Below are positions 6,788-30,299 of a stretch of 34,749 nucleotides of DNA, in pieces (the stretch's first letter is position 1; every line of letters begins with the position of its first letter). The notes under the pieces were generated by a model. It searched no databases and had not been told where the DNA came from. It worked only from the letters and a program-made list of their open reading frames with translations. This DNA is from Planctomycetota bacterium (GTDB lineage Bacteria > Planctomycetota > Planctomycetia > Pirellulales > Pirellulaceae). The stretch lies in the NCBI GenBank assembly GCA_016872635.1, contig VGZN01000004.1:1-34749 (forward strand), read 5' to 3'. The translations under genes and the position numbers were made by a program.

Positions 6788-6808
6788 TTATCCCCATGTG
6801 AAGAATCT

Positions 6809-7741: not shown

Positions 7742-7774
7742 GTCGGCGGCAAAACTTGAGTTTTCAGCCGTTGG

Positions 7775-8344: not shown

Positions 8345-8370
8345 GGAGTGGATGGAGATTCGGAGGCGTA

Positions 8371-9390: not shown

Positions 9391-9508
9391 GTCTGGTCGT
9401 ACTTTAGTTGAATAAGTTTCAGTAGGAAGTGAGTCGTTGTTATGTTGTCGGAAGCCTCAATGATGACGAAGGCTTCGTTGAGTGCTGGATTGATTTGCGT
9501 CGACGAGC

Positions 9509-11831: not shown

Positions 11832-14063
11832 TTATTCGACTTCAGACGTAACAGTATCGAGCACTCGGAGCTCAAAGTGCTCCAGCAATTTTCCCAAAGG
11901 TAAGATCAACGCGCGATAGAGATTCCACGAAGCGAACGCCCAGGGAATTGCCAAGAAGAGTGCCACTGGGACGGACGCCATCGCTGGAACGAACCGACTG
12001 ATCACAAACTCGATCCCGAGCGGGGCGAGGCTCAAGCAAAACATCATAGGTATCAAGGTTGAGAGGAGCAACGTTGATACAACCGCCTTCCAATTGAACC
12101 GCTTGGGCTGAATCCCGCCAGCTGGTAATCCAAACGGGGCTAGGATCGACTGGAGGTTTGTTACCAGAAAGCAAACGGGGATGAAGGTGATAATCGCTAG
12201 CGGGGAGTAGAGAAGTTTATCCAACGGGATGCGCCAATAGATACCAATCCCTATGCATGTCAGTCCGGCGATCGCGAATACAGGGATGCCATACGCGACG
12301 TTACGCCCGTTCAAGATCTGATGCCTGGGAATCGGTGAGAGGACCCACGCTCGGAAGCCCGAGCGATCGAATCCAAACAAGTTTCCTAAGAAGCCCGAAG
12401 ATGTGTAAAGGCAGAATCCCGCAATTCCCAATACGAGAAATGTATCCAAAAACGGATTGGCCGATGATCTCCAGTAACTCATGAAGAACAACAGAATGAT
12501 CGGCTGGATGAAGGGACCCATCAATTGCAGTTTCATCTCAGGAGCTCGCCAAATCGAAATCCAGGTTTGCGCCACAATTGCGGACGATGTTTCATCCAAC
12601 ATTGGGAACGATCGTTCCATCCACGTGCTGCTCCCCTTGGTCCCTTCCTGCAATCCTGCAGTGGAAATTGCTTGGTTAGTCGCCGTAGGGGATGTCGATT
12701 CCGCTTTTGGTTGGGAGAGTCCGGGAGCCGAACCGAATCCATGCTGGTAGTACCGCAATGTGGTGGCATAGTTGCGTCGTAGCGATACCGCTGATATCGC
12801 CAGCATCCCAGGAACCAAGAAAAGCGTTTTCCAAGGTGATTTTGGAATCGACTCGGCACATGCGGCAAACCAAAAAGGAGGCAGGGTGATATCAAGCCAA
12901 CTCAAGGCCTGATCCAGCACACCCGTGAACTCAGTAAACGACTCCGCGCGAAATGGCGCGGCTGATTCTTGCAATGAAGTATCCGTTTCGGGTGGTGTGT
13001 CGACTGGCAACGCTTTCGATGAGGAGGATGCAGTCGGTACCTCAGCCATGGAATCGGTAGCCATGGAATTTGCAGGGATCGGCGCTTCGGGGCTGGCCTC
13101 AGGGGTGTCTAGTTCTATGGGTGTGTCCGTAACGATGCTGTTGTCCGTAGTGCTTTCTTCGATCTTGCTGTCATGGAGATTCCCTTCGATCGATGGTATG
13201 GGAGCAATTGAGGGCAACGTACTATCTGGCAGTACTGTTGGTGGCGGAGGCAGAACACCGTGGGGGTTGGGCTTTGTGATGCGAGCAACGTACGAGGTGA
13301 GTTGACTGATGGAAATAGCAACGCCTGCCATCGTGATGCCAACGATAAATGGCAAGAAGAGCATTACCATTCGCCTACGTTTTGGATTGGCAACCCACGC
13401 TGAAAGGATACTTCGAAGGTGCGATGTCAGCGCCGTGATCATCACTAAATATGCCAGTAATGGGATAGCGATCAGCAGCACCGAGGGGCCGTGCGAGATC
13501 GATCCCCCGAGGATCAAGCCGATGCAGATGCACGTGAAGTAGATAAAGGGCAAGTTTCCAAGAGAGAGGATATGATTGAGGGAAAAGACATGGCTGGGGG
13601 AAATTGGCAAATGCATGATCCGGTCCATGCTGACTCCATCGCTCCGGGTCAGTTCGGTCGAGATTTCGATGATCCAAAACAAAAGAAAGACGAATACGAG
13701 ACCGTTCCAAACGTAGCTCGTGTAGTTCATCGAACTCGCGTTCCGATAGAGAAAGAATCCCCCGATGGAACCGATGAGAACAGCGAAGAGAGTCCCCATA
13801 CTGATCGCCGAATAGAACACAAAAACGACGACCTTGCCCAGGATCGATTCCCGCGACCAGCGATTCGCTACGACTCGCGATTGAAGGAAAACAATGGCGC
13901 TGAAATGCTGAATGCAAGTGCGGATCCAACCGGATAACGAATCATTCTCGGCGTTGCTTCCCGTTCGCGAAGCATGTTCTCTCGAGGGCAGGGTAGGGGA
14001 GGGGGGTGCCGTCGCAGACAGGGCAGGGCGGGGCAGGGGGGTGCCGGCGGTCTCAGGAGTCAT
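11832..14063 (-). CDS. ABC transporter permease-like multi-pass membrane protein
   Basis: 743 aa, many TM segments; overlaps the downstream ATP-binding gene; about 110-residue Pro/Thr/Ser/Glu-rich insertion between TM blocks. Confidence 0.75.
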   Translation of the reverse strand: MTPETAGTPLPRPALSATAPPSPTLPSREHASRTGSNAENDSLSGWIRTCIQHFSAIVFLQSRVVANRWSRESILGKVVVFVFYSAISMGTLFAVLIGSIGGFFLYRNASSMNYTSYVWNGLVFVFLLFWIIEISTELTRSDGVSMDRIMHLPISPSHVFSLNHILSLGNLPFIYFTCICIGLILGGSISHGPSVLLIAIPLLAYLVMITALTSHLRSILSAWVANPKRRRMVMLFLPFIVGITMAGVAISISQLTSYVARITKPNPHGVLPPPPTVLPDSTLPSIAPIPSIEGNLHDSKIEESTTDNSIVTDTPIELDTPEASPEAPIPANSMATDSMAEVPTASSSSKALPVDTPPETDTSLQESAAPFRAESFTEFTGVLDQALSWLDITLPPFWFAACAESIPKSPWKTLFLVPGMLAISAVSLRRNYATTLRYYQHGFGSAPGLSQPKAESTSPTATNQAISTAGLQEGTKGSSTWMERSFPMLDETSSAIVAQTWISIWRAPEMKLQLMGPFIQPIILLFFMSYWRSSANPFLDTFLVLGIAGFCLYTSSGFLGNLFGFDRSGFRAWVLSPIPRHQILNGRNVAYGIPVFAIAGLTCIGIGIYWRIPLDKLLYSPLAIITFIPVCFLVTNLQSILAPFGLPAGGIQPKRFNWKAVVSTLLLSTLIPMMFCLSLAPLGIEFVISRFVPAMASVPVALFLAIPWAFASWNLYRALILPLGKLLEHFELRVLDTVTSEVE
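13986..14006 (+). repeat. KOPS-like cluster GGGCAGGGTAGGGGAGGGGGG (3 GGGNAGGG)
   Basis: direct reading; N-terminal codons of the permease. Confidence 0.9.
14021..14041 (+). repeat. KOPS-like cluster GGGCAGGGCGGGGCAGGGGGG (2 GGGNAGGG)
   Basis: direct reading; N-terminal codons of the permease. Confidence 0.9.
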
Positions 14064-14929
14064 GGCGAGGCATCCCCTTCCTGGGTCTTCTCGGCCTCAA
14101 GGGTGGATGGCACTGACCCACCGTGATCTACAGGGACGACTGATGGGCCGATGCTTGCTGAAGTCTCCGTAGAATCCAGCCAGTCCAATGTCGCCGTTGA
14201 TCCACTTTCGCTGCCAGCAACTTCGATGAATTTCTTTTCGAGTGAACCCGATTCCAGGATTTCCTGCATCGAGTTTTGGAGGACCAATTTGCCTCCAACA
14301 ATTACGCCGACATGAGTACACAGTCGCTGAACGATTTCAAGGACGTGGGAGGTGAGAAAGACGGTTGCACCACGATGCGTGAACTGCAGCAATAGGTCTC
14401 GAATGACCAAGGAAGCGACAGCATCTACTCCCTCGAACGGCTCATCGAGAAAAAGAAGCTTCGGATTGGAAAGCAGAGCTGCGGCAAGCGATAGTTTTTT
14501 TCGCATCCCGTGCGAGTAATCGATCGTCAATTTTTTTGTTTCGCGATCGAGGCTCAGCAAGGTCAGGAGTTCGGAGGATCGTTTGCGAATTTCGTCGCGT
14601 CCGAGGCCGTGAATGCGCCCGATGAACGTCAAATAATCGGTGGCTGTCAAATTATCGAAGAGCGCTAAGTTTTCGGGGATCACGCCGATTTGCCGCTTTG
14701 CCTCCAAAGACTGTTTCGAGTCGAGCATGTCACATCCGAGGACACGGATCGAGCCACTAGTGGGAGCTAATAATCCCGTCAGCATTTTAATCGTGGTCGA
14801 TTTACCCGCGCCGTTAGGGCCTAGGAAGCCATAGAACGTGCCGGGTTCTACCGTTAAGTGGAGGGTGTCTACCGCAAGCCGGCCATGGAAGGCTCGGCAA
14901 AGTGCATCGGTGGAAATAACGGAGTTCAT
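14060..14929 (-). CDS. ABC transporter ATP-binding protein
   Basis: Walker A 'GFLGPNGAGKSTTIKML', 'DYSHGMRKKLSLAAALLSNPKLLFLDEPFEGVD'. Confidence 0.95.
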   Translation of the reverse strand: MNSVISTDALCRAFHGRLAVDTLHLTVEPGTFYGFLGPNGAGKSTTIKMLTGLLAPTSGSIRVLGCDMLDSKQSLEAKRQIGVIPENLALFDNLTATDYLTFIGRIHGLGRDEIRKRSSELLTLLSLDRETKKLTIDYSHGMRKKLSLAAALLSNPKLLFLDEPFEGVDAVASLVIRDLLLQFTHRGATVFLTSHVLEIVQRLCTHVGVIVGGKLVLQNSMQEILESGSLEKKFIEVAGSESGSTATLDWLDSTETSASIGPSVVPVDHGGSVPSTLEAEKTQEGDASP

Positions 14930-15151
14930 AGGTCAGAGTGCTTTGTTGGATGGCTCGAGTTGCCTACAAAATCTTCGAGTTTGGAAAAATCATACTCCTA
15001 GAATGGGACTCTGGGCTCCGTCGTCCTGCAATTTGCTCGCTGTGGCAACTCGACTTTCGACAAACTCCATTCGATTTGCCGCTACAATTCTTGGGAGAAC
15101 CTGATGTGAAGGTTTGATTTTTCAGTCGAAATTGAATGATGGGGCCGACCA

Positions 15152-18100
15152 TTGGCGAGGCGAAAGAAATCTCCAGCTTCCTACTCGCTAGACGCTTTGC
15201 GCGCCTTGCTGGAGCAGAACTTTTCGCTCCCGACATTTCGATCGGCTCACGGTGGGAGAGCATTCGGTGTAAGCGGAACAACCAATCGGGCTTCGGGCAA
15301 CCTCTCGGACCATGCTACCAACGGCGAATCTTCCGACGGCGAAGTTGCGTATACGGACAGCGATAGAAGCACGAAAGAATTGGTGCTCGCACGATCTGCA
15401 CACACTCGTGCGGAACAGTGGCAACCACGATTCCAGAAGATGATCGATCGCTTGCCATCGAATGTTTCCAAGGCTGGTAAGCCTCACGAAGACAGCATCG
15501 AGATTCTTGCGATTCATGCCTCCACGGTATTCGAAGCGGTGTACCGTACTCACTCCGAGGAGTGTCTAGCCGAGGAGTATCTGGTCTTTGTTTCGACCGA
15601 TTGGAATTTGGGTTGTGGTTGCTCATGCTCGATCAGTGCTGGACGAGGAAACTGTTTGCACACCGTCGCTTTGCTCCGTCGCGTGCATGAAGACCTAGCT
15701 TCGCCAGGGTCGCAGATCGCTCAAGCGGTTTCTCAAGGGAGGTTTTCGGATCAAGGTTTCCAAATGGTGGATTACATCCCCGATTCTGGCCTAGCACAAT
15801 TGGGCAGTCTGGATCGCTTGATCGCTTTACCCAAGTGGACGGAACACGCTGAATCGATTCGAGTCGACCGTATTCCTCACCGACGCACTCGGGTGGTGTG
15901 GCATATCGAGAGGCACTGGGGTATCGGTATTACGCCCTACATTCAAGTCGCTAACAAAAAGGGGAACGGTTGGAACCGCTCTAAAGAGATCGAGATCGCA
16001 GAACTTTGGAGCAGTGGAATTGAGTTGACCGAATCGGATAAACGCGTTCGAAAATGGATGGAGCATGAACTGGCAGGAAAGGATTTGCCGGTGATCGACA
16101 TCCTAGAAGCGCTCGTCGGACAACCTAATGTCTTTTTGAGCCATCAACACGAAGAGGTCGACGTCTCCAGAAGCGATGGCCGCATTGTTTTGCACGAGAT
16201 TCCGAAGGCTCGCAAGTTGCGACTTTGCTTTCGCGAGGAAACGCAATGGCCTGCGACCAATGTCTGTTTCCTCAACGACGGGATCGTAATGGTCTCTGAG
16301 ATCGCGCGAAAAATCGCGGTGGCACGATTCGATGCCAAGCAAACAGAGATGCTCTATGATCTACGACGGATTGCTGATATTCCGGCCAAGCATCGCGATG
16401 TGATTTTCCAAAAGATGGAGGCACTGCAAACATTTCTCAATGTTGAGTTGCCGTCGCGGGAAGAGCTTGCAATCGCGGAATTGGTTGCCCACCCGGTGAT
16501 GCTCCTCAAAAGCTTTCGAAATGGAGTCTTGGAGTATGGGTTGCGGGTCCGCGATGGCAAAGGCCGCCTGCATCGACCAGGCCAAGGCGTATTATTTCAG
16601 ATCGATCGAAGCGGGGATGCGCCGACGCAGTGGGTTCGCTCTGCTGCCAAAGAGATCCAGCTTTGCCAACACTGGCGAGATCGACTCGGAATCGAGGTCG
16701 CGAACTGGGATGGAGCCATCGAGGATTTTTTTGAAGCGATGACTCTGGTCAATTCGTTGCAGACGCCTACGAATTGTGCTGAGCCAAGTGAGGGAGAAGC
16801 TGCGCACAACCACATCGAGGTATTGTGGGATCCAAGAAGTGAATCGAAACCGCAACTGGCAGGAACGATCGGCATCGCAAACTTGAGAGTTTCCATCGAA
16901 CGGAAACGGGATTGGTTCCAATTGGCCGGTGAGTGTCTGTTGGGAGAGTCATCGATAGGGTTGCAGCAATTGCTGGATGCGATCGATGATAGCGAGTCTG
17001 TCCGGGTTGGTGCTGCAGCGGGGCAGGGCAGGGGGGGGAGCGATGGAAGCGAGTTTGTTCGTGTTGGGGATCTAGGTTGGGCGAAAATATCCACCGAGTT
17101 GCGGCGGAATTTGAAGCAGTTGCGAGAGTCGGTTCATAGCGAACGCAAGGCTTTGAAATTCGACCATTCCGCGGCGATCGAGATGCGAGCGCTGCAGCAA
17201 CGGCTTCCGATTCAAACCCACAAGTCGTGGGAAGAGTGCTTAGACCGAGTCGCTAGTGCTCAGGCCATGGAGCCAACGTTGCCCGGTGGGTTTGCAGCAT
17301 CGCTTCGCGACTACCAGTTCGAAGGTTATCGCTGGATGCGACGGTTGTGCGAATGGGGTGTGGGAGGTGTATTGGCCGATGACATGGGGCTCGGAAAAAC
17401 CGTGCAAACGCTCGGCGTTTTGCTCGACAGGGCAGGGGAGGGGCCATCGCTCGTCATCGCACCGACATCGGTCGGTTTTAATTGGATGCGGGAGACCGAA
17501 CGGTTTGCACCTGGGATCCAAGCTTTCCTCTATCGCGAAACCGATCGAGACGACTTTCTTCGTGGGCTGGGGCCTAACCAATTGGTGGTTGCAAGTTACG
17601 GATTGGCGTTGCGGGATATCGAGAAGCTCAAGCAAGTCGATTGGAATATTCTCGTTCTCGACGAAGCGCAAGCGATCAAGAACGGAAGGAGCAAAACCTC
17701 GAAAGCGATTGCCGATCTTGGGTCCAAATGGAAAGTTGCTCTGACGGGGACTCCGGTTGAAAACCACCTCGGTGAACTGTGGAGTTTGTTCCATACCGTT
17801 GCGCCAGGTGTTTTCGGCTCATGGGATCAGTTTCGGATTCGTTTTGCGAGTCCTATCGAACGAGATAACGATCCTGAGCGGCGAGATGCCCTTCGGAAAC
17901 GCTTGATGCCGTTTGTATTACGGAGGACGAAAAAAGAAGTGCTTCGCGATTTACCATTGCGTACGGATATGAATCTGATGGTCGAGTTGAGTCCTGCAGA
18001 ACGCAAGCGATACGATGCGGTTCGTGCGACTGCGATCATCGAAGCCGAGACCATCGCCAAATCCTCAGAGGATCAGGAGCAACGCTTCCGAATTTTGGCG

Positions 18101-18685
18101 ATACTGACCCGATTGCGTCAGTTGGCATGCCATCCTCGATTGGTGGATGAAACCTGGAGTGAGTCCTCGGCAAAATTGGATCAACTCAAAGAGACGCTAC
18201 TGCAACTCCGAGAGGAGGGTCATCGCGTTTTGGTTTTCAGCCAATTTGTCCAGCACTTGCAATTGATTCGAGCCATGCTCGATCAGGAGGGGATCACCTA
18301 CCAGTACCTCGATGGCTCAACCCCTGCGAAAGCAAGGCAGAGCGAAGTGGATCGTTTCCAGAACGGAGATGCCGATGTGTTTTTGATTTCGCTCAAGGCA
18401 GGAGGGACCGGATTGAACTTGACCGCAGCCGACTATGTCATTCACATGGATCCATGGTGGAATCCGGCCGTGGAGGATCAAGCCACCGATCGTGCGCACC
18501 GCATTGGGCAGACCAAGCCGGTCATGGTCTACCGCATCATCGCGCAGAATACGATCGAGGAAGAGATTCTCAAGCTTCATGAAACCAAACGGGATTTGAT
18601 CGCAGGGGTGCTGGATGGAGCCGAAAGTGCGGCCAAACTAACCACAGCGGACTTGATCGCGATCATCCGAGGTGAGCATTCTTAG
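15152..18685 (+). CDS. SNF2/SWI2-family DEAD/DEAH helicase with N-terminal SWIM-type zinc finger
   Basis: 'CGCSCSISAGRGNCLHTVALL' (CxCxnCxH), 'LADDMGLGKTVQTL', 'LDEAQAIKN', 'LTGTPVENHLGELWSLF', 'SLKAGGTGLNLTAADYVIHMDPWWNPAVEDQATDRAHRIGQ'; TTG start in ORF track. Confidence 0.93.
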   Translation: MARRKKSPASYSLDALRALLEQNFSLPTFRSAHGGRAFGVSGTTNRASGNLSDHATNGESSDGEVAYTDSDRSTKELVLARSAHTRAEQWQPRFQKMIDRLPSNVSKAGKPHEDSIEILAIHASTVFEAVYRTHSEECLAEEYLVFVSTDWNLGCGCSCSISAGRGNCLHTVALLRRVHEDLASPGSQIAQAVSQGRFSDQGFQMVDYIPDSGLAQLGSLDRLIALPKWTEHAESIRVDRIPHRRTRVVWHIERHWGIGITPYIQVANKKGNGWNRSKEIEIAELWSSGIELTESDKRVRKWMEHELAGKDLPVIDILEALVGQPNVFLSHQHEEVDVSRSDGRIVLHEIPKARKLRLCFREETQWPATNVCFLNDGIVMVSEIARKIAVARFDAKQTEMLYDLRRIADIPAKHRDVIFQKMEALQTFLNVELPSREELAIAELVAHPVMLLKSFRNGVLEYGLRVRDGKGRLHRPGQGVLFQIDRSGDAPTQWVRSAAKEIQLCQHWRDRLGIEVANWDGAIEDFFEAMTLVNSLQTPTNCAEPSEGEAAHNHIEVLWDPRSESKPQLAGTIGIANLRVSIERKRDWFQLAGECLLGESSIGLQQLLDAIDDSESVRVGAAAGQGRGGSDGSEFVRVGDLGWAKISTELRRNLKQLRESVHSERKALKFDHSAAIEMRALQQRLPIQTHKSWEECLDRVASAQAMEPTLPGGFAASLRDYQFEGYRWMRRLCEWGVGGVLADDMGLGKTVQTLGVLLDRAGEGPSLVIAPTSVGFNWMRETERFAPGIQAFLYRETDRDDFLRGLGPNQLVVASYGLALRDIEKLKQVDWNILVLDEAQAIKNGRSKTSKAIADLGSKWKVALTGTPVENHLGELWSLFHTVAPGVFGSWDQFRIRFASPIERDNDPERRDALRKRLMPFVLRRTKKEVLRDLPLRTDMNLMVELSPAERKRYDAVRATAIIEAETIAKSSEDQEQRFRILAILTRLRQLACHPRLVDETWSESSAKLDQLKETLLQLREEGHRVLVFSQFVQHLQLIRAMLDQEGITYQYLDGSTPAKARQSEVDRFQNGDADVFLISLKAGGTGLNLTAADYVIHMDPWWNPAVEDQATDRAHRIGQTKPVMVYRIIAQNTIEEEILKLHETKRDLIAGVLDGAESAAKLTTADLIAIIRGEHS
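17021..17038 (+). repeat. KOPS-like repeat GGGCAGGGCAGGGGGGGG (2 GGGNAGGG)
   Basis: direct reading; inside the helicase, encodes AGQGRGGS. Confidence 0.9.
17430..17443 (+). repeat. KOPS-like repeat GGGCAGGGGAGGGG (2 GGGNAGGG)
   Basis: direct reading; inside the helicase, encodes RAGEGP. Confidence 0.9.
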
Positions 18686-18794
18686 TGCAGGCGTCTTTAT
18701 CGCAACGCTTTCTATACGGGTAAGGATTCGCGGGCGTTGCGGAAACGGAGCGCGTTGAAGCGCAATGCAGTGATGCGAAGAGCAGGGCACTGCA

Positions 18795-18804
18795 GGGCAG
18801 GGGG
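18795..18804 (+). repeat. KOPS-like GGGCAGGGGG
   Basis: direct reading; between convergent genes. Confidence 0.9.
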
Positions 18805-19530
18805 TTAGCGCACCCAGTTTCCGGATTGCTCGCGGACTATGTTGAACCAGTCGGTTGCTGTGTGAGGAATGTTGTGCTGGTGCTGGTATCCGAAGCGTTG
18901 CATGATCCCCTCGTCGTGGTAGGCGAGAACGCCCAGCAGGATTAAGAGGGCGTAGGTCATGAGGTTAGGAATGCGATTCTCGCCCCAGAATTTGAGGGCG
19001 GTGCCAAAGCTATGCTTGAACACATACCGACCTCTTCGAAATTCGACCGACCAAATCTCGTCGAGCAGGATGTGCGACATGAAGCCGATGAAAACGGCTA
19101 CGGTTTTAAAAAGTCGAAGGTTGATGTTTTCAGAGGAAGAAACCAGAAAGACAAATAGAGCGGCGATGAAAGCAGCCGGCAAGCTGTGCCACATTCCGCG
19201 GTGGACTGTATATCGTCGGAATAATTCTGCGATGCCAAACCGGAGGAAGAAGTAGATCCCGCCGGTGATTAGAAGCATCATTTCGTGCGAAAGCCCAACC
19301 CGTTCAAGTCGGCTGACCATGAGCATAGGGACGAAGGCAGCCGCGAATGCAACGGCTTCGCGAAGCGGAATCCCCGAATCGCTATCGAGATCGGGGAGCA
19401 TTCCGCTGACCGCGCAGAGTCCACCAGCGATCACGCAGCTTTCCCAAGGCATCCCCGATTGGTATCCCCCTAAGCCGAACAGTGTGCCGGCGATGGTGCT
19501 GACCGTAATATGCGTTTTGAAGTCGGCCAT
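18805..19530 (-). CDS. YdjM-like metal-dependent hydrolase/membrane protein
   Basis: 'MADFKTHITVSTIAGTLFGLGGY', 'LPDLDSDSGIPLREA', 'HRGMWHSLPAAFIAALF', 'GFMSHILLDEIWSVEF'. Confidence 0.8.
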   Translation of the reverse strand: MADFKTHITVSTIAGTLFGLGGYQSGMPWESCVIAGGLCAVSGMLPDLDSDSGIPLREAVAFAAAFVPMLMVSRLERVGLSHEMMLLITGGIYFFLRFGIAELFRRYTVHRGMWHSLPAAFIAALFVFLVSSSENINLRLFKTVAVFIGFMSHILLDEIWSVEFRRGRYVFKHSFGTALKFWGENRIPNLMTYALLILLGVLAYHDEGIMQRFGYQHQHNIPHTATDWFNIVREQSGNWVR

Positions 19531-19531
19531 A

Positions 19532-19542
19532 GGGTAGGGGGG
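19532..19542 (+). repeat. KOPS-like GGGTAGGGGGG
   Basis: direct reading; immediately upstream of the 18805-19530 (-) start codon. Confidence 0.85.
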
Positions 19543-19555
19543 CTTCAAGGAATTA

Positions 19556-19566
19556 GGGCAGGGGGG
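19556..19566 (+). repeat. KOPS-like GGGCAGGGGGG, last + strand site left of dif
   Basis: direct reading; intergenic. Confidence 0.9.
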
Positions 19567-19804
19567 ACCGTGAGCGGCGATGCGCTGGCGGCCGGTTCCA
19601 CTGCGTTTGGGATATGTACCTCGGGAAGGGTGATACCAAGAGCGCGGTGGCAGAATCAATATTGGCTCGTGGGACCCGAATGTTCTTTTGTGGAAACTGG
19701 CCTTCGTTCCATCGATGGCATATGGTTATAGTCGGGCCCGGCTGATTGGAAGGATGGTGATTCAACGGCAATCGGCTAGTTCAACTTCGAGAAAGCACAA
19801 TTGC

Positions 19805-20650
19805 ATGCAAACATACGACATCATCATGTTGGTCGTTCTCGCGGCCGCGACAATTTTTGGGGCGATCAAAGGGTTTGCATGGCAAGTTGCATCGTTGGCT
19901 TCGATCGTGGTCAGTTATTTTGTTGCTAGCTATTTCCGAAACGATGTTGCCAAGGTGATCAATGCGCAGCCTCCTTGGAACATGTTTTTGGCGATGTTGC
20001 TGCTGTATTTCGGAACAAGTTTGGCGATTTGGCTAATGTTTCGCATGATCAGCTCGTCGATTGACAAGATCCGGTTGAAGGAATTTGATCGTCAATTGGG
20101 TGCGGGTTTTGGCTTGATCAAAGGTGCAGTGCTTTGCTGTCTAATTACGATGTTTGCGATGACGCTGTTAGGTCGAACTCAGCAGCAAGCGATCGCGAAC
20201 TCACGGAGTGGACATTACATCGGCCAGGTCCTTTCCCAGGCGGGCGGAGTTCTGCCGGCGGAGGTTAAAGAGGTCATCGGTCCGGTCCTCGCGAATGTTG
20301 GCAAGCAACTGGAGCAGAGTCGCGATCCGAACTATGTCCCCCCTGTGAATACGGGATTGCCAGGAGGCGACGATCCTTGGTCCAAAGGGTTGGACGCAGC
20401 GGTGAACGCATGGGGACAAGAAATGACAGGTGGCGGGCAGTCGCCAGCGGGTGAGCGTAACACATCGGGCGGGATCCTCAGCCGCTGGTTGAATCCGAAT
20501 GACACACCAGCGCCAAGCAACCCAACGCCGGCGGCTCCGCTGCCAATAAATCCGACTCCGGGGAAGGCCCCGGGCGGTTTGTACCCGCCTGGTTATCCGG
20601 CGAGTTTCCCGAGCACAGGTGGGAATTTAAGCCCCGGATACAACCCGTAA
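19805..20650 (+). CDS. CvpA-family membrane protein
   Basis: 'YDIIMLVVLAAATIFGAIKGFAWQVASLASIVVSYFVASYFRNDVAKVI'; Pro-rich tail; start at MQTYDII. Confidence 0.8.
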   Translation: MQTYDIIMLVVLAAATIFGAIKGFAWQVASLASIVVSYFVASYFRNDVAKVINAQPPWNMFLAMLLLYFGTSLAIWLMFRMISSSIDKIRLKEFDRQLGAGFGLIKGAVLCCLITMFAMTLLGRTQQQAIANSRSGHYIGQVLSQAGGVLPAEVKEVIGPVLANVGKQLEQSRDPNYVPPVNTGLPGGDDPWSKGLDAAVNAWGQEMTGGGQSPAGERNTSGGILSRWLNPNDTPAPSNPTPAAPLPINPTPGKAPGGLYPPGYPASFPSTGGNLSPGYNP

Positions 20651-21065
20651 GGTTGCGCAACCGTCAAAGCTAGCCAAGCCCCCCGGGCTTTGCGAGCAAT
20701 TCAATTTCCCTCTTTCGGCGATGGTCCCTTTTCGGAAAAATCGAAATTTCCAGCGCAGTTTCACTTCGGCGGCGTGCTTAAGTGGGCCGAGTCGGGGCAG
20801 GATCCTAAGAGTCCGATGGGTTGGGGCGGCTGTCGATTAGTGGATGTTTAGCGTGAGCTTGGTGGTCGGTTGCTTCTCGGCAGTTCGACGCTCGTTGTTT
20901 TCCAGTTTTCGGTCGATGCCTTGGGTTGCGTTGGCTCTAGAGTCGGGGCGACAGAGTTGATGGCGTACGGCGATTAGGTAGTCAACCGCGGAACGACAGT
21001 CTTGAATCGGTACCCAAAAGCCGTCTCCCAACAGGGCTTCCAATCACCAGAACTATCCCCAAATA

Positions 21066-21093
21066 ACGTCCGATAATGTTTCTTATGTTCGGT
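21066..21093 (+). other. dif: candidate dif site (XerC/XerD recombination site): ACGTCCGATAA TGTTTC TTATGTTCGGT
   Basis: 11-6-11 layout; right arm TTATGTTCGGT matches 8/11 of the E. coli XerD arm TTATGTTAAAT; left arm ACGTCCGATAA matches 9/11 of the Firmicutes-type arm ACTTCCTATAA; intergenic; sits where GGGNAGGG polarity switches. Confidence 0.75.
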
Positions 21094-21402
21094 TTTCGGT
21101 TACGAAATCCCTGGGAAGCCAGGGGTTTTGGTTTCTCGGGCTTGGGTTGGTCGCATGTTGCATTCGTGTTCCCTGCCGGTTGGTTGGGTGTGTTGCTTGG
21201 AATGCTTAGGGCAAGTCGCTGTTTCCCATTTTCTGCTCGAGATCGCTGGCAATCTTTACGGCCAAAATTGCGGTTTGGGGCCCGCCGAGCCTTTAGGCGG
21301 GTGCAGGAATCCTTGTGCATCGGTTCCGCTCAAGCCATTCCCGTGCGATGATAGCGACTCGGGTTTTCGGATCTTGCCGCTTGTAATGCCGAGGAAACGT
21401 TT

Positions 21403-22464
21403 TTGCTTCCGTCAAACCTTAACGGCCTCAGCCCAGGCGACCCTAGAGCCGGTGAGCTTCTTGCGGGGGATCTTCCAACTGGGGATCTTCCAACTGGGGG
21501 GCCGCCTGACGGCCGAAATACCACTCGGCCGTTGGGACCCCATTTGCGCCATCGCGCAAGGCGGCTACTTATCATCGTCTTTACCCTTATCGGTATTTGG
21601 GGATGCGGATGGCTGGTCCGTTTCTTTGCTCGCTCCGACGAAGTCGCTCGCTTGGCTTCGATGATCCTGTTCGCTCCCGCGCCCATCGTGGCTATTTGGT
21701 TTGGTTGGCGCACGCGGTTGCGATTCGAAGACTGGCTCGTCGCTTCGCTATCAATTCTTGTTGGGTTTCTCGTCTGGAACAGCGTCATGCTCCAGGGTCT
21801 CAACGATCCTGTGCAGTTTCGGGAGGTCGTCTCCAAGAATGCCGTGCATTGGTTCCTGTTCTTGATAGTTGGTACTGCAACAGCCCGATCGATACAGTGG
21901 GCGTCTCGAATCGGAATATGGTCTATGGTCAGTTGCGATGACGAGCCAGAGACCAAGGCGTTATCGGTGATTCGGCTGATGGGGATAACGGCGACAGTAG
22001 CCGTGTTTGCGGTTTCCTATCGCGCGATCTTTCATGCTTCGCTCGAAGAAGCCAAATCATGGATTTATATGGGAGCACCAAGTGGACCGATGCATTGGTA
22101 CTCGTGGTTTCCACTCCGATCCAAGATCTGGGTTTCGGGAGCCATCGGTGGAGTGTTGATTGGATTTCATTGGTACGCGGTCGTCGTAATCCTTCGGTTG
22201 GGTTCGTACCGCATGCCGGGTCTCGTTCTCTGGAGCATTGCAGTGGCGGGCCTTCGATGGAGTGCGAACCAAATCTACTGGGGCGAGATACCGATCTGGA
22301 TCGATCTACCGATTACGATCGATCTCGACTTCCGACCTTCGCAAATCGCAATCCAAATGCTCGTCGAAGGAACCTTGCAAACCCTGATCACGTGCGTATC
22401 GATTTATGGATTGCGCGGTTGTGGTTTCCGGATCGGGAAAAGGGGCAGGGCCCCCCTGCCCTAG
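21403..22464 (+). CDS. multi-pass membrane protein of unknown function
   Basis: 353-aa ORF with repeated TM segments; start codon uncertain because the N-terminus is Gly/Pro repetitive. Confidence 0.65.
   Translation: MLPSNLNGLSPGDPRAGELLAGDLPTGDLPTGGPPDGRNTTRPLGPHLRHRARRLLIIVFTLIGIWGCGWLVRFFARSDEVARLASMILFAPAPIVAIWFGWRTRLRFEDWLVASLSILVGFLVWNSVMLQGLNDPVQFREVVSKNAVHWFLFLIVGTATARSIQWASRIGIWSMVSCDDEPETKALSVIRLMGITATVAVFAVSYRAIFHASLEEAKSWIYMGAPSGPMHWYSWFPLRSKIWVSGAIGGVLIGFHWYAVVVILRLGSYRMPGLVLWSIAVAGLRWSANQIYWGEIPIWIDLPITIDLDFRPSQIAIQMLVEGTLQTLITCVSIYGLRGCGFRIGKRGRAPLP
21466..21499 (+). repeat. 15-bp tandem repeat ggggatcttccaact, about 2.3 copies
   Basis: seen directly; encodes GDLPTGDLPTG near the N-terminus of the 21403 ORF. 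Confidence 0.9.
22443..22461. repeat. inverted pair GGGCAGGG-CCC-CCCTGCCC (KOPS-like in both orientations)
   Basis: direct reading; at the 3' end of the 21403-22464 CDS. Confidence 0.9.
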
Positions 22465-22530
22465 CCTTCCCTAGCGGTGCTGCCATGGGGGCAAATTAGG
22501 TGGCATCCAACTGTGCGAGCCGTCGTAACG

Positions 22531-22551
22531 CCACTGGCTCAAGGCCAGTGG
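22531..22551. terminator. perfect 8-bp-stem hairpin between convergent genes
   Basis: CCACTGGC TCAAG GCCAGTGG; no T-tract, so terminator function uncertain. Confidence 0.4.
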
Positions 22552-22624
22552 AGGCCGGACAATCCTTCTGCGTCAGATACCCCAGCAATGTTGGAAATGC
22601 TCGAACGAAGTCAGTTCTCGGTGG

Positions 22625-23632
22625 TTAGACGCTGAAGGTGTGACCGTGTTGGCTCACGGTGCCATCTTCGAGTTGCTCAAGGTACGAGCCCATTTTCCGG
22701 AACTTGTCGTAGCGGCGTTCGAGGAGTTGTTCTGGATCGGTTTTTACCAATTGCTCGAGGGTTTTTGCAAGATAGTTCTTCAGTCGAGCCGCCATTTGAT
22801 GATGGTCGCGATGCGCGCCGCCGAGGGGTTCCTCGATGACATCATCGACCACACCGAGTTGTGGCAAATGCTCCGAAGTGAATCGCAATACATCTGCAGC
22901 CTTGGGCGCATGCTGATGGCTCTTCCAAAGGATACCGGCGCAGCCCTCAGGGCTAATTACGGAGTAATAAGCGTACTGCAGCATAGCGATGCGATCCCCG
23001 ACGCCGATCCCAAGTGCGCCCCCCGAGCCACCTTCGCCTATGACGATGCAAATGATCGGCGTTTTGAGCTGGCTCATCAGGAACATGCTTTCCGCGATCA
23101 CCTGAGCTTGGCCTCGTTCCTCGGCACCGATCCCTGGATATGCACCTGGAGTATCGATGAAGCAAATAATTGGAATACTGTACTTTTCAGCCAATTTCAT
23201 TTTGGCCATCGCCTTGCGATAGCCTTCGGGATGCGCGCAACCGAAATGGCACGCCGCGCGTTCCTTGAAGGTTCGGCCTTTTTGGTGCCCTACGACCATG
23301 ACTTTTTGACGCCCTAGTTTGGCGAATCCGGTCAAGAGAGCGCGGTCGTCGCCAAAGAACTTATCGCCATGCAATTCGATGAACTCATCGAAGGCTAGGT
23401 TCAAGTAGTCGCGTGTGTAGGGACGGTCCTTGTGGCGGGAAACTTGAACGACTTGCCAAGGGGTAAGTTTCGAATAAATCTCTCGGGTCTTATCCGTCCA
23501 GCAACGTCGAAGTTGACGAGCCAATTCCTGCTGCTCTTCCGAAGGGTTTGCAGCGGCTTCGAGTTCGCCCAATTGCGCTTCGATATCCAACATCGGTTGT
23601 TCGAATTCAAAGCCTGGTGATGCGCTTGGCAT
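22625..23632 (-). CDS. accA: acetyl-CoA carboxylase carboxyltransferase subunit alpha
   Basis: 'FEFEQPMLDIEAQLGELE', 'FKERAACHFGCAHPEGYRKAMAKMKLAEKYSIPIICFIDTPGAYPGIGAEERGQAQVIAESMF', 'SPEGCAGILWKS'. Confidence 0.97.
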   Translation of the reverse strand: MPSASPGFEFEQPMLDIEAQLGELEAAANPSEEQQELARQLRRCWTDKTREIYSKLTPWQVVQVSRHKDRPYTRDYLNLAFDEFIELHGDKFFGDDRALLTGFAKLGRQKVMVVGHQKGRTFKERAACHFGCAHPEGYRKAMAKMKLAEKYSIPIICFIDTPGAYPGIGAEERGQAQVIAESMFLMSQLKTPIICIVIGEGGSGGALGIGVGDRIAMLQYAYYSVISPEGCAGILWKSHQHAPKAADVLRFTSEHLPQLGVVDDVIEEPLGGAHRDHHQMAARLKNYLAKTLEQLVKTDPEQLLERRYDKFRKMGSYLEQLEDGTVSQHGHTFSV

Positions 23633-23750
23633 GATTTAGAATGGGTGATTGGTAGGTTGAGGATTTGGGAGTATCAAACTTAGCAGTGACTCTTTCTAAA
23701 TACGATCTTAGATCGAGGCATTCGATAAGCGTGGCCATGACGGGTACGGC

Positions 23751-24656
23751 CTAGGTTGGGGCATCGATTCGGCCGCCTCCCTGGAAATCGTCGAAAACAT
23801 TGATATCTGGAATGCGGGGTGGCTTCTTGAAGATCGGGGTGCCGCGGAGCATTTTGAGGACATCCCACATGCTGTCCGGTCGGTCCTCAGGTTTTTTGGC
23901 AAGCATTTTTCGGACGATTGCGTTGAACTCAGGAGTCACGTTTTCATTGCCGACGAGAATCGACGGGACGGATGCTGAAAGGTGTTTGCTCAACAGCTCG
24001 TTGGGTGTGTTTCCGGTGAAGGGAGCGCGGCCGGTGATCAATTCGTAGATCATGCAACCCATGGAGTAGATATCGCTGCGAGGGTCCAAGGTTTGTCCGC
24101 GGATCTGTTCTGGGGACATGTAAGATCGCGTTCCTTCCACTTTGGTTTTACCGGCAAAGAGCTTGCCGAGTCCCGTTTTGACTTTTTTGGCGATCGTAAA
24201 GTCAATCATTTTAACTTCCCAGTTCCTACTCAAAAGGAAGTTATCAGGCTTGATATCGCAATGGACATAGCCCTTGGAGTGCAGGAAATAGAGTGCCTCG
24301 GAGGATTGCTCGGCGATGTTTGGTAACTGATACGCGATGGGTTCGGGCCCTTTTCGCATCGCCATTTTCAAGTTGAGTTCGCTGAATAGTTCCAAAACAA
24401 TGAACGGCGTTTCAGCATCGGTTCGATATTCGATGAGTTTGATGATGTTCTTGTGGCTCATCCCTTTGGCCACTTCGAATTCATGCTTGAGGAACGCGAT
24501 TTCCTCTTTGTTCCCTCGCTGTTCGGGGCGGAGGACTTTTAACGCAAAGCGAGCGTTGTCCTTGTCTCGAATCGCTTCCCAGACTTGGCAGGTACTACCG
24601 AGTCGGATCAGTCGAGCGAGTCTATAGGAACCGAGAAAGTCGCGAACCTTGACCAT
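23751..24656 (-). CDS. serine/threonine protein kinase
   Basis: 'YRLARLIRLGSTCQVWEA', 'YVHCDIKPDNFLLSRNWEVKMIDFTIAK', 'GTRSYMSPEQIRGQTLDPRSDIYSMGCMIYELITGRAPF'; start at MVKVRDF. Confidence 0.93.
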   Translation of the reverse strand: MVKVRDFLGSYRLARLIRLGSTCQVWEAIRDKDNARFALKVLRPEQRGNKEEIAFLKHEFEVAKGMSHKNIIKLIEYRTDAETPFIVLELFSELNLKMAMRKGPEPIAYQLPNIAEQSSEALYFLHSKGYVHCDIKPDNFLLSRNWEVKMIDFTIAKKVKTGLGKLFAGKTKVEGTRSYMSPEQIRGQTLDPRSDIYSMGCMIYELITGRAPFTGNTPNELLSKHLSASVPSILVGNENVTPEFNAIVRKMLAKKPEDRPDSMWDVLKMLRGTPIFKKPPRIPDINVFDDFQGGGRIDAPT

Positions 24657-24690
24657 TTTAAAACTACTACTGTGGCAAAAGGAATTATCA

Positions 24691-24706
24691 CCCCCCTGCC
24701 CTGCCC
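24691..24706 (-). repeat. KOPS-like GGGCAGGGCAGGGGGG on - strand (2 GGGNAGGG)
   Basis: + strand reads CCCCCCTGCCCTGCCC; upstream of the kinase gene. Confidence 0.9.
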
Positions 24707-25053
24707 TGCATCGGGGACGCCGAGGCAAGTGAAACGGATGCCGATTGTGCCTCGGTATGCCGTTTCGATTTGAACTGTCGTTTCGCCTCGGAACATCGAG
24801 TCGAACACAGAAAGTTCGGGTCGAACACGGGTTGGTCGTGGTACAAACCCGGGGGATGCATCTTCTGTACTATAGGCAAAACCCGCAAAATCCGAAAGGA
24901 TTGACCTTTCCAGCGACTCCCCTACATTCTCTCGCAATGCCACGTGGTTGGGCGAGTTCAGTCCCGGGGCGTAACGCGAAAAAAGCATCGCAACTCGAGC
25001 GTTGAGTGGCGCAAGCCGTATTCAAAACCTTCTATTTCCAAGGAATCTATACC

Positions 25054-25572
25054 ATGGGCCGTTCTGGAGTTATCACATTCAAAGGTTCCCCAATGACCCT
25101 TCTCGGGGACGAACTCAAGGTGGGAAGCAGCTTGCCTGACTTCACCCTTCATTACTTCGAGGGTGGATTGAAGACGATTACGCCTAGGGATTTGGCCGGC
25201 AAGCCGACGATTATTTCCTCGGTTCCGTCTCTCGATACCGGGGTCTGTGCTATCCAAACCAAGAAATTCAACAGCGAATTGGCCGCCATGGAAGGAAAGA
25301 TCAACGCTGTTACTGCTAGCCGCGACCTACCGTTCGCCATGAATCGCTTCTGTGGCGCTGAGTCCATCAAGAACATGCGTGTCGGTAGCGATTACCAATC
25401 GGGGGATTTCGGAAGCAAAACTGGGCTTCTCATCGACGAGCTCAAGCTGCTGACCCGAGCGGTTATCGTTGCGGATGCCCATGGCAAAGTCGTTTATGTA
25501 GAGATCGTTCCTGAAGTGACCTCAGAGCCCAATTACGATGCGGCGTTGAGTGCGTTGAAGTCGATTCTCTAG
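25054..25572 (+). CDS. tpx: thiol peroxidase (Tpx-type peroxiredoxin)
   Basis: 'ITFKGSPMTLLGDELKVG', 'SVPSLDTGVCAIQTKKFN', 'DLPFAMNRFCGAESIKNMRVGSDY'. Confidence 0.95.
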   Translation: MGRSGVITFKGSPMTLLGDELKVGSSLPDFTLHYFEGGLKTITPRDLAGKPTIISSVPSLDTGVCAIQTKKFNSELAAMEGKINAVTASRDLPFAMNRFCGAESIKNMRVGSDYQSGDFGSKTGLLIDELKLLTRAVIVADAHGKVVYVEIVPEVTSEPNYDAALSALKSIL

Positions 25573-25629
25573 ACCCGAGTGTGGGATCGAATCTTAAGAA
25601 CTGAAATCGCGGGGGCGTAGAACGACCTA

Positions 25630-25640
25630 CCCCCCTGCCC
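25630..25640 (-). repeat. KOPS-like GGGCAGGGGGG on - strand
   Basis: + strand reads CCCCCCTGCCC; between tpx and the coiled-coil gene. Confidence 0.9.
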
Positions 25641-25740
25641 TCTGCTGTGCCCTCTGCCCTAGCCTTAGGCGTTAAGCCATGAATACAAAAAGCTCCTGCC
25701 TCGAAGCTTCGCGGCCTCTTCCTCAGAAAAATAGTCGCTA

Positions 25741-25782
25741 TCGCGTTTCAGCTGTCGCGTTTCAGTTGTCGCGTTTCAGTTC
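25741..25782 (+). repeat. 14-bp tandem repeat tcgcgtttcag(c/t)tg, 3 copies
   Basis: three consecutive units read directly; overlaps stop codon of the 25762-26388 gene. Confidence 0.9.
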
Positions 25783-26388
25783 GCCAGCAATACGTTTTAT
25801 TTCGCCGGCCATACGTTCGACCATCGCACGTAACTCTCGCATTTCTTCTTTGAGCTGTTCGTTCTCTTCCATCAATCGCGCCATCGGGGCTCCTGGAGCG
25901 TTTGGTCCGGGTGGATTGATTCCAGGTTGTCGTTGGTTTTGCATCGAACGAGCAAATGCTTCCTTGGCGTTGCCTAAGTCCTTTTCAATATCGTCAGCCT
26001 TGCGAGTGACCTCGTGAGCCATGTCGTGCATTTCGGCCATCTTGAGGTTTTCAGCGGCGACTCGCAGGTGCTGAAGTCGTTTCGCAGTTCGCGCGAACTT
26101 CTCAGCTTGCTCGGCATTCGGACGCCCTTGGCGGGCACGCTCGGGCGCCTCCGGACGGTTTTGTCGTTCTGATTGCTGCTCCAATGCAGCCGTCAATTCA
26201 GCGGCTTCACGTTTGCGCTGTCGAGCTTGTTCAGGTTTACCGTTCTTTGACAATTCCTCCGATTCCTCCAGAAGCTGCGCAATTCGAGCTTTGATTTCTT
26301 CACGCTCATCAGCGTGAGAAGGTGCAGCGTTTGAAAGGAAGCAAGCGGTGGAAACGGCAGCGGATGCAAGCCAAAGGTGGTAACGCAT
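25762..26388 (-). CDS. secreted coiled-coil protein of unknown function
   Basis: signal-like 'MRYHLWLASAAVSTACFLSNAAPSHA' followed by a long charged helical region. Confidence 0.65.
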   Translation of the reverse strand: MRYHLWLASAAVSTACFLSNAAPSHADEREEIKARIAQLLEESEELSKNGKPEQARQRKREAAELTAALEQQSERQNRPEAPERARQGRPNAEQAEKFARTAKRLQHLRVAAENLKMAEMHDMAHEVTRKADDIEKDLGNAKEAFARSMQNQRQPGINPPGPNAPGAPMARLMEENEQLKEEMRELRAMVERMAGEIKRIAGELKRDN

Positions 26389-26579
26389 GCGAAAGGTTCC
26401 TGGGTGTGAAGTAAGGGAGAGGCGAGCCCGATCGCACAGGAATGTCAAGGTTCCGTGTGGGGCGTGAGAGCAGGTTTTTCCATGCTCTATAGAGACGACT
26501 ATACTTGGTTGGGAGAGCGAGCGGCAAGACCTAGGGTCCAGTAACAATTCACGGAACCGGTAAATTCAAGCAATCGCTA

Positions 26580-27605
26580 TCAAGAAGGGGATTCCGTGCG
26601 TCTCGACACGGGCGGGCTGCTTGGTGGTGGAACTGTAGATTTTCGTACATCGCGAGCCGCGAGCTCGCGTCCTATGATATCAAAGCGTGTTTTGCTTTCG
26701 AACGGTTCTAGGCTACGAACCAATTCGCTCATCAACTCCTCGATCCGGCCGAAAACCTTGGTGATCTTTCCTTCGAAGTAATGAGAAGCGATGGCAGCAG
26801 GGATCGCAACAATCAAACCGGCAAGAGTTGTGACCAGGGCTTCGTAGATGCCCACTGCTAGGAAATCGGCTCGATTCTGTCCCGCGGTCAGTTGGGTGGT
26901 GTCGTGGAACGCGCGAATCAATCCCCATACCGTACCGAGCAGTCCTAGAAGTGGCGCGATACCTGCACCGAGATTGAGCCACCGAACGTTGGCATACGCG
27001 CGATCGACTTGCCTTTGAGTAGCTTCGGTGACCGCTGTGGCGATTTCCGATTGAGGCCGTCCTGCAAGAATTATTCCTGCTTTCGCGATCTCGGAAGCAG
27101 CGCATCGAGACTCATTGCAAATACGATACAGTTCCCTCGGGTCGATTTTACCCGACCTCAGCGCGTTAGTCATTGTTTTTCGAAACGAGTTGGGGAGAAG
27201 CCGTCCTGAACGCAAGCCGATCCAGCGATCGAAAACAAAGGTCACCACGACCAAGCTGGTGACGCCGATCGGGATCATGAACACACCACCGCGAATCAAC
27301 AGATCGATAAAATCGATCCCCATTTGTTTTTTGTCGACCGGTACTTCCGCTGCGATGATTGTCGGCGACGAACCATTTGCGTCAGTGGTTTGTCCCAAGC
27401 TCACTCCGCAGAAGACAACAGCCAAAACGAAGATCCCTACAAGCAATAACCGTTGCCCCTTGTCTCTCGATTGGGGATTGTCTGAATGCGTTTTGGGGCA
27501 AGCGGAACATAAAAGGGATCGCGATCGTGGTGGCACGCACTGCTCCTTTGTGACGACGAATAAAACAGTGGAATTAGTATAACCCAAGGCCGAAGGCATC
27601 AACAT
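26580..27605 (-). CDS. MotA/TolQ/ExbB proton channel family protein
   Basis: 'GGVFMIPIGVTSLVVVTFVFDRWIGLR', 'LNLGAGIAPLLGLLGTVWGLIRAFHDT', 'IYEALVTTLAGLIVAIPAAIASHYFEGK'; start uncertain. Confidence 0.88.
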   Translation of the reverse strand: MLMPSALGYTNSTVLFVVTKEQCVPPRSRSLLCSACPKTHSDNPQSRDKGQRLLLVGIFVLAVVFCGVSLGQTTDANGSSPTIIAAEVPVDKKQMGIDFIDLLIRGGVFMIPIGVTSLVVVTFVFDRWIGLRSGRLLPNSFRKTMTNALRSGKIDPRELYRICNESRCAASEIAKAGIILAGRPQSEIATAVTEATQRQVDRAYANVRWLNLGAGIAPLLGLLGTVWGLIRAFHDTTQLTAGQNRADFLAVGIYEALVTTLAGLIVAIPAAIASHYFEGKITKVFGRIEELMSELVRSLEPFESKTRFDIIGRELAARDVRKSTVPPPSSPPVSRRTESPS

Positions 27606-27704
27606 CAGAAACTGAGAGGCGGGTCCTATCTCAAGCGGAAAAGCTCCCCGTGAATCCCTTTATGAATACCCCTATCAATCCGATAAAGTCTTGCTGTTTG
27701 TGAA

Positions 27705-30299
27705 TTATTCCACAGCGGGCCCCACCGAAAAGCATTCCGCGTCGCTAGAGAGGTAATCCCAAGGGATCCTCGAGATCGCGCCTGATTGTTCGAGCATGAG
27801 TACCGTATTTCGGATCGTTGCCTCAAAATTGCTGCGTGCTATGCGATCACCAGCAGCGATGCTGCGCCAATCGATGACCAGGAAACGTATCTCTGATTTC
27901 GATTGATCGAGCCATTTCGAATGGTTTCGAAGCAGGAGTTCGAGCGATGCAAGTTCGCTGAGTCCGACCTCCAGGGTCGGAACAGTCAGAAAAAATGTGT
28001 CGGTGGTTCCGACCACCAGCCAGCGACTCGATGATCGAAATTGTGTGGGGAGAACGCGAGATCCGTCATGCCTGTTGATCCAATCGGTATAGATTGGGAA
28101 GGTCGATAAACCAGTCGATAAACGAATTGACGGAGGCGACGAGAGGTCTTTCGGATTCACGGCCCCCCCCTGCCCTGCCCTTTCGAGGGATGGCTCGCGT
28201 CCGGCGTCGTTGCTTTCTGTACTGCCCTCTAGGGCATCCCCCCTGCCCTCCCCTGCCCCGGGTTGATCCGGAACCGAGTGCCGGCTCAGGAGTGTAGTTT
28301 GGATATTGACCTGGGGGTTCGCGATAGTAGTAGGGATCAGTTGATCGATGGCGACCAGTAAACGAGGGTCTGCCGTGGGCCACGCCGCTAATGCGATGAC
28401 GCTCCACGCGAGCGAGATCAAGGCAAGTGGGAAGATCAAATAACCGCCCGATCTTTCGCGAAGCCACTGGATAGCTTGCGCTGCCGGCCAAGCTAACATC
28501 GGGGTTGCTACCACCCAATCGCGATCAAGGTGGGTGGTGAATATCCACCAGAGAAGGATCCATACCAACCATGCCATGGAGGAAAATCGAATCTCACGAT
28601 CCCGATACCCAGCCACGGCACCGATCGCGGCGAGCGGGATCAGCAACAGTCCATGCGCCATGGAGTTCCAAAGAATGCTGTTGAATGCATCGGCCAATTC
28701 GCTGAGCGACGCGCCGAGCATGGCGATGTTCGAGTGTGCAATCGCCAACGTTGGAAGGAAATCGTGGGATAGCGGGGAACCGTGCAGAAAAGCTCGAAGT
28801 TGCCATGGTATTGCAGCTGCGACGAATACCGTGAGCATCGCCAATCGTGCGATAACGGATCGACTCGCCACGGAGTTGCGATCGTTCCAATTACATTTTC
28901 GATCGCGCGAATTGAAGTTGATCATGCGATAAAGAAGGATGCTGCCTAGGAAGATACCAAGGAGTGATTGGTAGCTAAGTGCTCCCGCAGCAATGCACCA
29001 TGAACTGAGCTTGGGGATGGGCTTTTCATTAGGGAATTGGATCAAAACCATCGATGCGGTAATCCAAAGCATTAGCCCCCCTGCCCTGCCCCCGAGTCGG
29101 ACCAGTTCGTGCATCCCCGGGTGAGCTATGAGCAAAAAAGCGGTCAGGGCGGCGGCTAATGCACCGAATCGCCAGCGGATATTCGAAGCGATCATGAGAA
29201 TAGCGATCAGCCATAGCGACGCATGGAGGACTTGTCCGGAGAGCCATGCGCACGTGAGATGGCGAAGCGTCGCTTCGGGTGATAGGCTGGGCCGTATAAC
29301 CTCAAGAAACGATGTCATTGCCAGGGCCGGCATCGTGTTGCCTTGAGGGCCGTTTGCCGCACGATGGAGATCGAACCAACCGATCGAGTTATCGAGGTAG
29401 TATTTTTTCGTTGAGAGCATCTCGATCTCTCGGACGTCTGCATCGTAGCTAGGTAAGCATGAGCCGAGTACTGCAATCGTTGCGAGCCATACGGCACCGA
29501 CGACTGAAAGACCGATCAATCGACGACTCCAAGAGGATGCGAATGAGGAATCGCTTTCGATAGAACGTGGTGTTGCGAGATAGAACAACAAGTACCATCG
29601 CGACGTCAGAGCTACGATGACTGTCGATAGGGCAAGGGGCAATAAGAAGCGGGGGCCGAAAATCCAGCCGTTCGCTAGGGTCAGTAGCGATAGGATTGCA
29701 TGGCCGATCGCGATCGAAAACCCGCGAGTGGCCATTGGACCATTCCAGTGGTCGAGCGATTCCCTGGTAGCGATGGGGTGGCCTATCCACCACGACGCCG
29801 CAAGCCATCCTGACGCGAGGAGAAGGATCGGAACTCGGTCCATCCATGAGGCGTAGAGAAGGCCGCCGGTCCATTGTTTCCAAAGATCGGACAGGCTAGC
29901 GACATCGACGAGCCAGAGTTCCAGTCGTGAGGTTTGTAGGAATTCTCCGTAGGGGTCGGCCAGCGGCATGGAAGGAATTAAGAGCATTGCCGCCGAGTAG
30001 CCGACCAAGAGCAGTCCGGCTGCAACGATTGCGATCCATTTTCCTAATTGTGGCTGATTTTTTGGCACTTGAGAGTGGGCCGAGCAAGCGAAATCGTGGC
30101 TGAGAACTAAACTCACGGTGTACCGTCGGTCTGCGGCGGGGGCCAGCGTTGGTCCCCCAGTCGGACGTAGATTGGACGTATATCGAACGTAGAATCGTAC
30201 GAAACGATGCTGGCGGTGTTTTGCGATACTCCTTACGGTATCGTAGAAATCGTTTGCAAGCCAACAAGATTCCCTGCTATTGTTTCCCTTATGAACCAA
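27705..30299 (-). CDS. large multi-pass membrane protein (glycosyltransferase-like topology), unknown function
   Basis: 864-aa ORF, many TM segments and C-terminal soluble domain; start uncertain. Confidence 0.65.
28163..28180 (-). repeat. KOPS-like GGGCAGGGCAGGGGGGGG on - strand (2 GGGNAGGG)
   Basis: + strand reads CCCCCCCCTGCCCTGCCC; inside CDS, encodes ..RAGQGGAV.. Confidence 0.9.
28238..28258 (-). repeat. KOPS-like GGGCAGGGGAGGGCAGGGGGG on - strand (3 GGGNAGGG)
   Basis: + strand reads CCCCCCTGCCCTCCCCTGCCC; inside CDS, encodes ..GAGEGRGDA.. Confidence 0.9.
29076..29093 (-). repeat. KOPS-like GGGGGCAGGGCAGGGGGG on - strand (2 GGGNAGGG)
   Basis: + strand reads CCCCCCTGCCCTGCCCCC; inside CDS, encodes ..LGGRAGGLM.. 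Confidence 0.9.

Follow-up and report, generated by a model that had tools for sequence, protein, structure and literature searches.

The locus raises the question of whether a short intergenic sequence of a planctomycete contig is the chromosomal dif, the site at which a bacterium without FtsZ would separate joined chromosome copies during division. No planctomycete dif was found in the open-access literature searched, and in an earlier survey, in which one genome of the Planctomycetes was tried, dif prediction failed for this group (PMC3025954).

The 28-bp core and its conservation

The sequence ACGTCCGATAATGTTTCTTATGTTCGGT was located at positions 21066-21093 on the forward strand of the window (the whole stretch of 34,749 nucleotides analysed, which is contig C4 of a draft genome of 6.08 Mb in 1143 contigs), and it agreed letter for letter with the 28-mer proposed as dif in the initial annotation. 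The features of the core and its surroundings are as follows.

19688-20650, forward strand: gene on the left, a member of the CvpA / colicin V production protein family (Colicin_V, 97 bits), given as context only
21065-21094, forward strand: 30-bp conserved unit, the 28-mer with the preceding A and the following T
21066-21093, forward strand: predicted dif core, recognised by position, uniqueness, order-level conservation and diverged flanks
21066-21076, forward strand: predicted XerC arm, ACGTCCGATAA
21077-21082, forward strand: centre, TGTTTC
21083-21093, forward strand: predicted XerD arm, TTATGTTCGGT

Inspection of the 28 bp revealed an 11-6-11 layout with dif-like arm ends and near-palindromic arms. 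The left arm is identical to the Firmicutes-type arm ACTTCCTATAA at 9/11 positions, the count given in the initial annotation, while the right arm has TTATGTT in common with the XerD arm of Escherichia coli. The likeness to actinobacterial dif proposed for this site was also confirmed, since CCGATAATG and TTATGT occupy corresponding positions in the dif predicted for Frankia alni (PMC3025954), CACGCCGATAATGCACATTATGTCAAGT, although the outer parts of both arms differ and the organism belongs to another phylum. The core is situated in an intergenic gap of 752 bp (20651-21402), in agreement with the ORF list and with the earlier estimate of about 750 bp; the ORF at its right-hand side (21403-22464) gave no Pfam match.

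A scan of the 6,077,677 bases of the draft genome at up to three mismatches returned the 28-mer alone, as the initial annotation had anticipated for a true dif, and the reversed control returned 0 matches. The order-level pattern ACGTCCGATAATNNNNNTTATGTTCGGT, with a free centre and up to three mismatches, was then searched in 148 relatives with the reversed pattern as control. The site was present in 133/148 genomes, and in 111/116 of those of good quality, counts that are not independent events since the compared genomes are related. Many of the genomes are drafts. It occurred as a single copy in 129 of the 133 site-bearing genomes and as two copies in the other four, and the reversed control gave 0; among the 15 of 148 genomes with no match many, not all, are incomplete. 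The matching contigs bore names such as Pirellula, Pirellulaceae, Pirellulales, Thermoguttaceae, Planctomycetaceae and similar. A pattern whose centre was one base too long, an accidental negative control, gave essentially no matches in the relatives. With a shorter pattern 237/345 genomes from across the phylum were positive, against about 31 genomes for the reversed control.

Conservation of the 28-mer over diverged flanks, another expectation set out at the start, was borne out: per-position agreement in the genus (11 loci) was 0.99 for the 28-mer and about 0.2-0.55 for the adjacent 28-bp blocks. In the order genomes the arms were fixed while the centre varied (TGTTTC, TGTTTA, TGTCTC, TGCCTC, TCTCTG and others). 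The centre of a dif must match merely between the two recombining copies, and fixed arms, a variable centre and diverged flanks are what Xer chemistry leads one to expect. The flanks are unconserved except for a short accessory element described below and for the two bases that complete the 30-bp unit (A in 146/150 and T in 122/150 order loci).

Two drafts carried dif on more than one contig. The flanks of L045 and L100, from a draft with two such contigs, were about 80-99% alike (80% and 99%), while in a draft with four (L047, L060, L083 and L101) the left flanks were 78-86% and the right flanks 43-63% alike. Both drafts are probably bins of mixed strains, and the differing right flanks of the latter could be due to indels or insertions at dif. 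Separately, in a genus of Planctomycetota outside the class (genomes G402, G384 and G420) up to 25 dif-like sites per genome were observed. Most of them form inverted pairs with a spacing of about 220-270 bp (for example in G402 at C7:13620-13889, locus L316 from 1501), and the short piece between the paired sites has long terminal inverted repeats, TGAACGCAACATAAGACTTATTATCGGAC. This is a small repeated element with dif-like ends, possibly mobilised by Xer in the manner of pdif modules, or its ends may resemble dif by chance.

Guide sequences and recombination machinery

The initial annotation had placed the 28-mer at a switch in the polarity of KOPS-like sites. The sites found in the window are the following.

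4084-19630, forward strand: 18 KOPS-like GGGNAGGG sites to the left of dif, all rightward
22443-22461, both orientations: palindromic pair of one rightward and one leftward KOPS-like site, containing the only wrong-way site of the window
22454-29091, reverse strand: 11 KOPS-like GGGNAGGG sites to the right of dif, pointing leftward

The window contains 30 copies of the motif GGGNAGGG where 4.45 would be expected, a count reached in 0 of 100 shuffles, and many of the 18 rightward sites are tandems overlapping by 5 bp, GGGCAGGGCAGGG. The switch was thus found in the window, and it recurred in 40 other loci. The distances of about 1.4 kb given for the nearest site at each side were correct, but the rightward site at 22443, to the right of dif, had been left out; it pairs palindromically with the first leftward site. 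A similar close pair of GGGCAGGG lies in locus L186 at about the same distance from dif.

Polarity was determined in the window and 40 Pirellulales loci, up to 10 kb on each side. In these 41 loci GGGNAGGG pointed towards dif 558 times and away from it 38 times, and an unbiased scan revealed that GGGCAGGG is the most dif-polarised of all 8-mers (389:18), with 138/410 sites arranged as tandems overlapping by 5 bp. The wrong-way copies of GGGNAGGG were more frequent at the XerD side (31) than at the XerC side (7), and over half of them lay less than 2 kb from dif. From an over-represented octamer that switches strand at dif we infer that GGGCAGGG / GGGNAGGG would be the KOPS read by FtsK.

The width of the guide zone was estimated from six genomes of the genus, one of them that of the window, and from G105, a genome of another family of the same order. 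In the six genomes the density of sites directed towards dif in successive 5-kb steps to 20 kb was 1.13, 0.60, 0.34 and 0.51 per kb, while beyond about 20 kb it was 0.03-0.13 sites per kb with both directions about equal, and samples taken round the chromosome of the complete genome G006 contained scattered, unpolarised sites. Polarity along whole chromosome arms, a property that is not strictly defining for KOPS, did not occur in the window's genus (none beyond about 20-30 kb) and occurred in part in G105, which showed a weaker peak and polarity out to 200 kb. The confinement is therefore not order-wide; it is a trait of the window's genus and perhaps of some relatives. In other classes of the phylum the polarity was weak, with 50 sites towards and 19 away from the site in 20 loci.

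Other markers of the terminus were uninformative. GC skew was weak; in the window it had one sign to the left and right of dif, and in two complete genomes it made no turn within 210 kb of dif; skew therefore neither supports nor opposes the assignment. Each complete Planctomycetia genome sampled has two long DnaA-like genes, in most cases distant from one another, and dif was not consistently opposite one origin as judged from their positions. DnaA is an ambiguous origin marker here because there are two such genes and many records have been rotated so that one of the two comes first.

Analysis of the predicted proteins of the genome revealed a XerC on contig C603, above the NCBIfam cut-off, and the N-terminal part (205 aa) of a protein on C313 whose best match was XerD and which is cut by the contig end; both recombinases are thus encoded, XerD as a fragment. 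A third, phage- or plasmid-like recombinase was observed on C230 (G000; L154 1357-2202). This short protein has a primase-type, DnaG-like start joined to the C-terminal part of a Xer-type recombinase, and could be an assembly or gene-fusion oddity. The FtsK gamma domain was identified on C577 (88 bits against a cut-off of 30.6) and in 37/40 relatives. It aligned over 60 residues with the gamma structures of Pseudomonas aeruginosa (2VE8/2VE9) and E. coli, and its helix reads GYGRAARLID as compared with GYNRAARIIE in E. coli. The FtsK of P. limnophila was said to have no gamma domain (PMC12283558), but the domain named in that paper is PF17854, whereas PF09397 was clearly present in the Pirellulales tested here. 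No FtsZ was matched in the window genome nor in 24 relatives, while 13/14 control genomes gave a match.

Three other readings of these data were weighed. The motif GGGNAGGG might reflect gene direction or strand composition rather than guide FtsK, as genes near dif are often co-directional and G-rich motifs track strand skew in many genomes. We consider this very improbable: the motif flips at dif while the GC skew of the window keeps its sign, its density and polarity are both lost beyond about 20 kb, and no other 8-mer is as polarised as GGGCAGGG across 41 loci whose flanks differ. The near-palindromic arms and the extra conserved sequence beyond the core would also suit an order-wide site of some other dimeric protein, such as a terminus organiser or regulator, yet this is extremely improbable given the arm likenesses (TTATGTT of the E. 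coli XerD arm, CCGATAA of actinobacterial dif), a variable 6-bp centre between invariant arms, and one copy per genome with converging KOPS and encoded XerC/D. Finally, Xer-using mobile elements duplicate dif-like sites and four of the 133 relatives do have two copies, so the 28-mer could be an attachment or resolution site left by such an element with the true dif elsewhere. The chance of this is close to negligible, since the window genome holds no second or better site, the site is single in 129 genomes, the polarity switch falls at the 28-mer, and in the double case compared, that of a draft with two such contigs, flank likeness was 80% and 99%, which suits mixed strains better than an insertion.

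Uniqueness, conservation, KOPS polarity and the presence of the Xer and FtsK genes together argue that the 28 bases are the chromosomal dif of a Pirellulales planctomycete, as the initial annotation had suggested, and judging from sequence comparison we assign this reading a probability of about 0.96. An FtsZ-less planctomycete thus almost certainly separates joined chromosome copies at the 28-mer during division.

A conserved element beside the XerD arm

An ungapped column comparison of 150 non-redundant order-level loci, with dif numbered 1-28, indicated that conservation extends beyond the core, as listed here for the window.

21049-21064, forward strand: weaker accessory signal at the XerC side
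21096-21135, forward strand: accessory element of about 40 bp at the XerD side, at a fixed distance from dif

At the XerD side the conserved columns of the 150 loci were T at 29, purines at 31-33, A/T at 40-43, C at 45-46, G at 48-50, A/T at 51-53 and T at 61-63, and at the XerC side A at 0, C at -1, CC at -9/-8 and A/T at -15. In window coordinates the consensus peaks of A/T at the XerD side are 21105-21108, 21116-21118, 21126-21128 and a weak one at 21133-21135, with C/G at 21110-21115 between peaks, and the XerC-side consensus comprises an A/T peak at 21049-21051, CC at 21056-21057 and C at 21064.

In a stricter set of 141 non-redundant loci with flanks less than 45% identical, the accessory columns mostly held 0.3-0.8 bits, and none of 527 far columns exceeded 0.116. 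The A/T fraction peaked about every 9-11 bp, with a power at 9.5 bp of 0.46 as compared with less than 0.015 in far stretches. Leave-one-out scores of the element had a mean of 10.1 bits (14.0 bits for the window), and 79% of the loci scored above every control stretch. The same A/T peaks were present in 8 loci of a family that belongs to the class but not to the order, and were absent from 20 loci of the wider phylum.

The possibility that the element is a true palindrome, with its centre at +47, was considered and rejected: complementarity was 0.383, against 0.373 expected from the column composition, and A/T phasing therefore fits the element better. With its A/T steps at helical spacing, the element probably serves the XerCD-FtsK complex by bending or wrapping DNA or as a protein site. 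It could instead be a mere transcription terminator or a phylogenetic remnant with no role in recombination, for the window piece CCCTGGgaagCCAGGGgTTTT is able to form a hairpin followed by T, and shared ancestry of related genomes could preserve such an element. We regard this explanation as unlikely, because most of the other loci listed lack the hairpin yet keep the A/T spacing, unconserved columns are interspersed with conserved ones at a fixed distance from dif in the 141 loci of low flank identity, and the element also occurs in the 8 loci of the same class outside the order.

Comparison with known systems and proposed model

The type of site is known, while for its assignment in this phylum, its short guide zone and its XerD-side element no description was found in the open-access literature searched. 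The locus resembles the XerCD/dif system of E. coli in its 11-6-11 layout, TTATGTT in the XerD arm, FtsK gamma domain and two recombinases, and in both organisms GGGNAGGG guides converge on dif. It differs in the absence of FtsZ, in the frequent tandem guides overlapping by 5 bp, in the conserved element beside the XerD arm and in the confinement of dense guides, in the window's genus, to less than about 20 kb from dif. In E. coli KOPS occur about once per 12 kb at similar density all round the chromosome (PMC3140498), and in the stretches of E. coli K-12 sampled far from dif the sites were still mostly polar. In the dif activity zone of E. coli KOPS converge over about 10 kb to the left and right of dif (PMC5357621). 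The zone that confines the guides here is of a similar order, but the E. coli guides continue beyond theirs.

The plasmid sites cer and psi (reviewed in PMC5357621) likewise combine a Xer core with conserved neighbouring sequence. The accessory DNA of cer is about 180 bp and is used by ArgR and PepA; the present site, on the contrary, is chromosomal and flanked by KOPS, and its XerD-side element is about 40 bp. Such an accessory element is not known at other chromosomal dif sites.

We propose that XerC would bind ACGTCCGATAA and XerD would bind TTATGTTCGGT. When an odd number of crossovers joins two sister chromosomes, a division-associated FtsK motor would load on GGGCAGGG sites within less than about 20 kb on either side and be driven towards dif from both sides, pairing the two dif copies. 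The FtsK gamma domain would then activate XerD, and strand exchange across TGTTTC would separate the chromosomes, while the XerD-side element may help to load, stop or assemble the complex. We give roughly even odds to the joint proposal that FtsZ-less planctomycetes keep a complete, though modified, FtsK-KOPS-XerCD-dif system, with guides limited to about 40 kb around a composite dif, and that in this composite dif the helically phased XerD-side element bends DNA or binds a protein required for recombination under FtsK control.

The dif described here provides a landmark for the segregation of chromosomes in this phylum, for which GC skew was uninformative in the present genomes. Both the accessory element and the short guide zone depart from the E. 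coli model in ways that can be tested.
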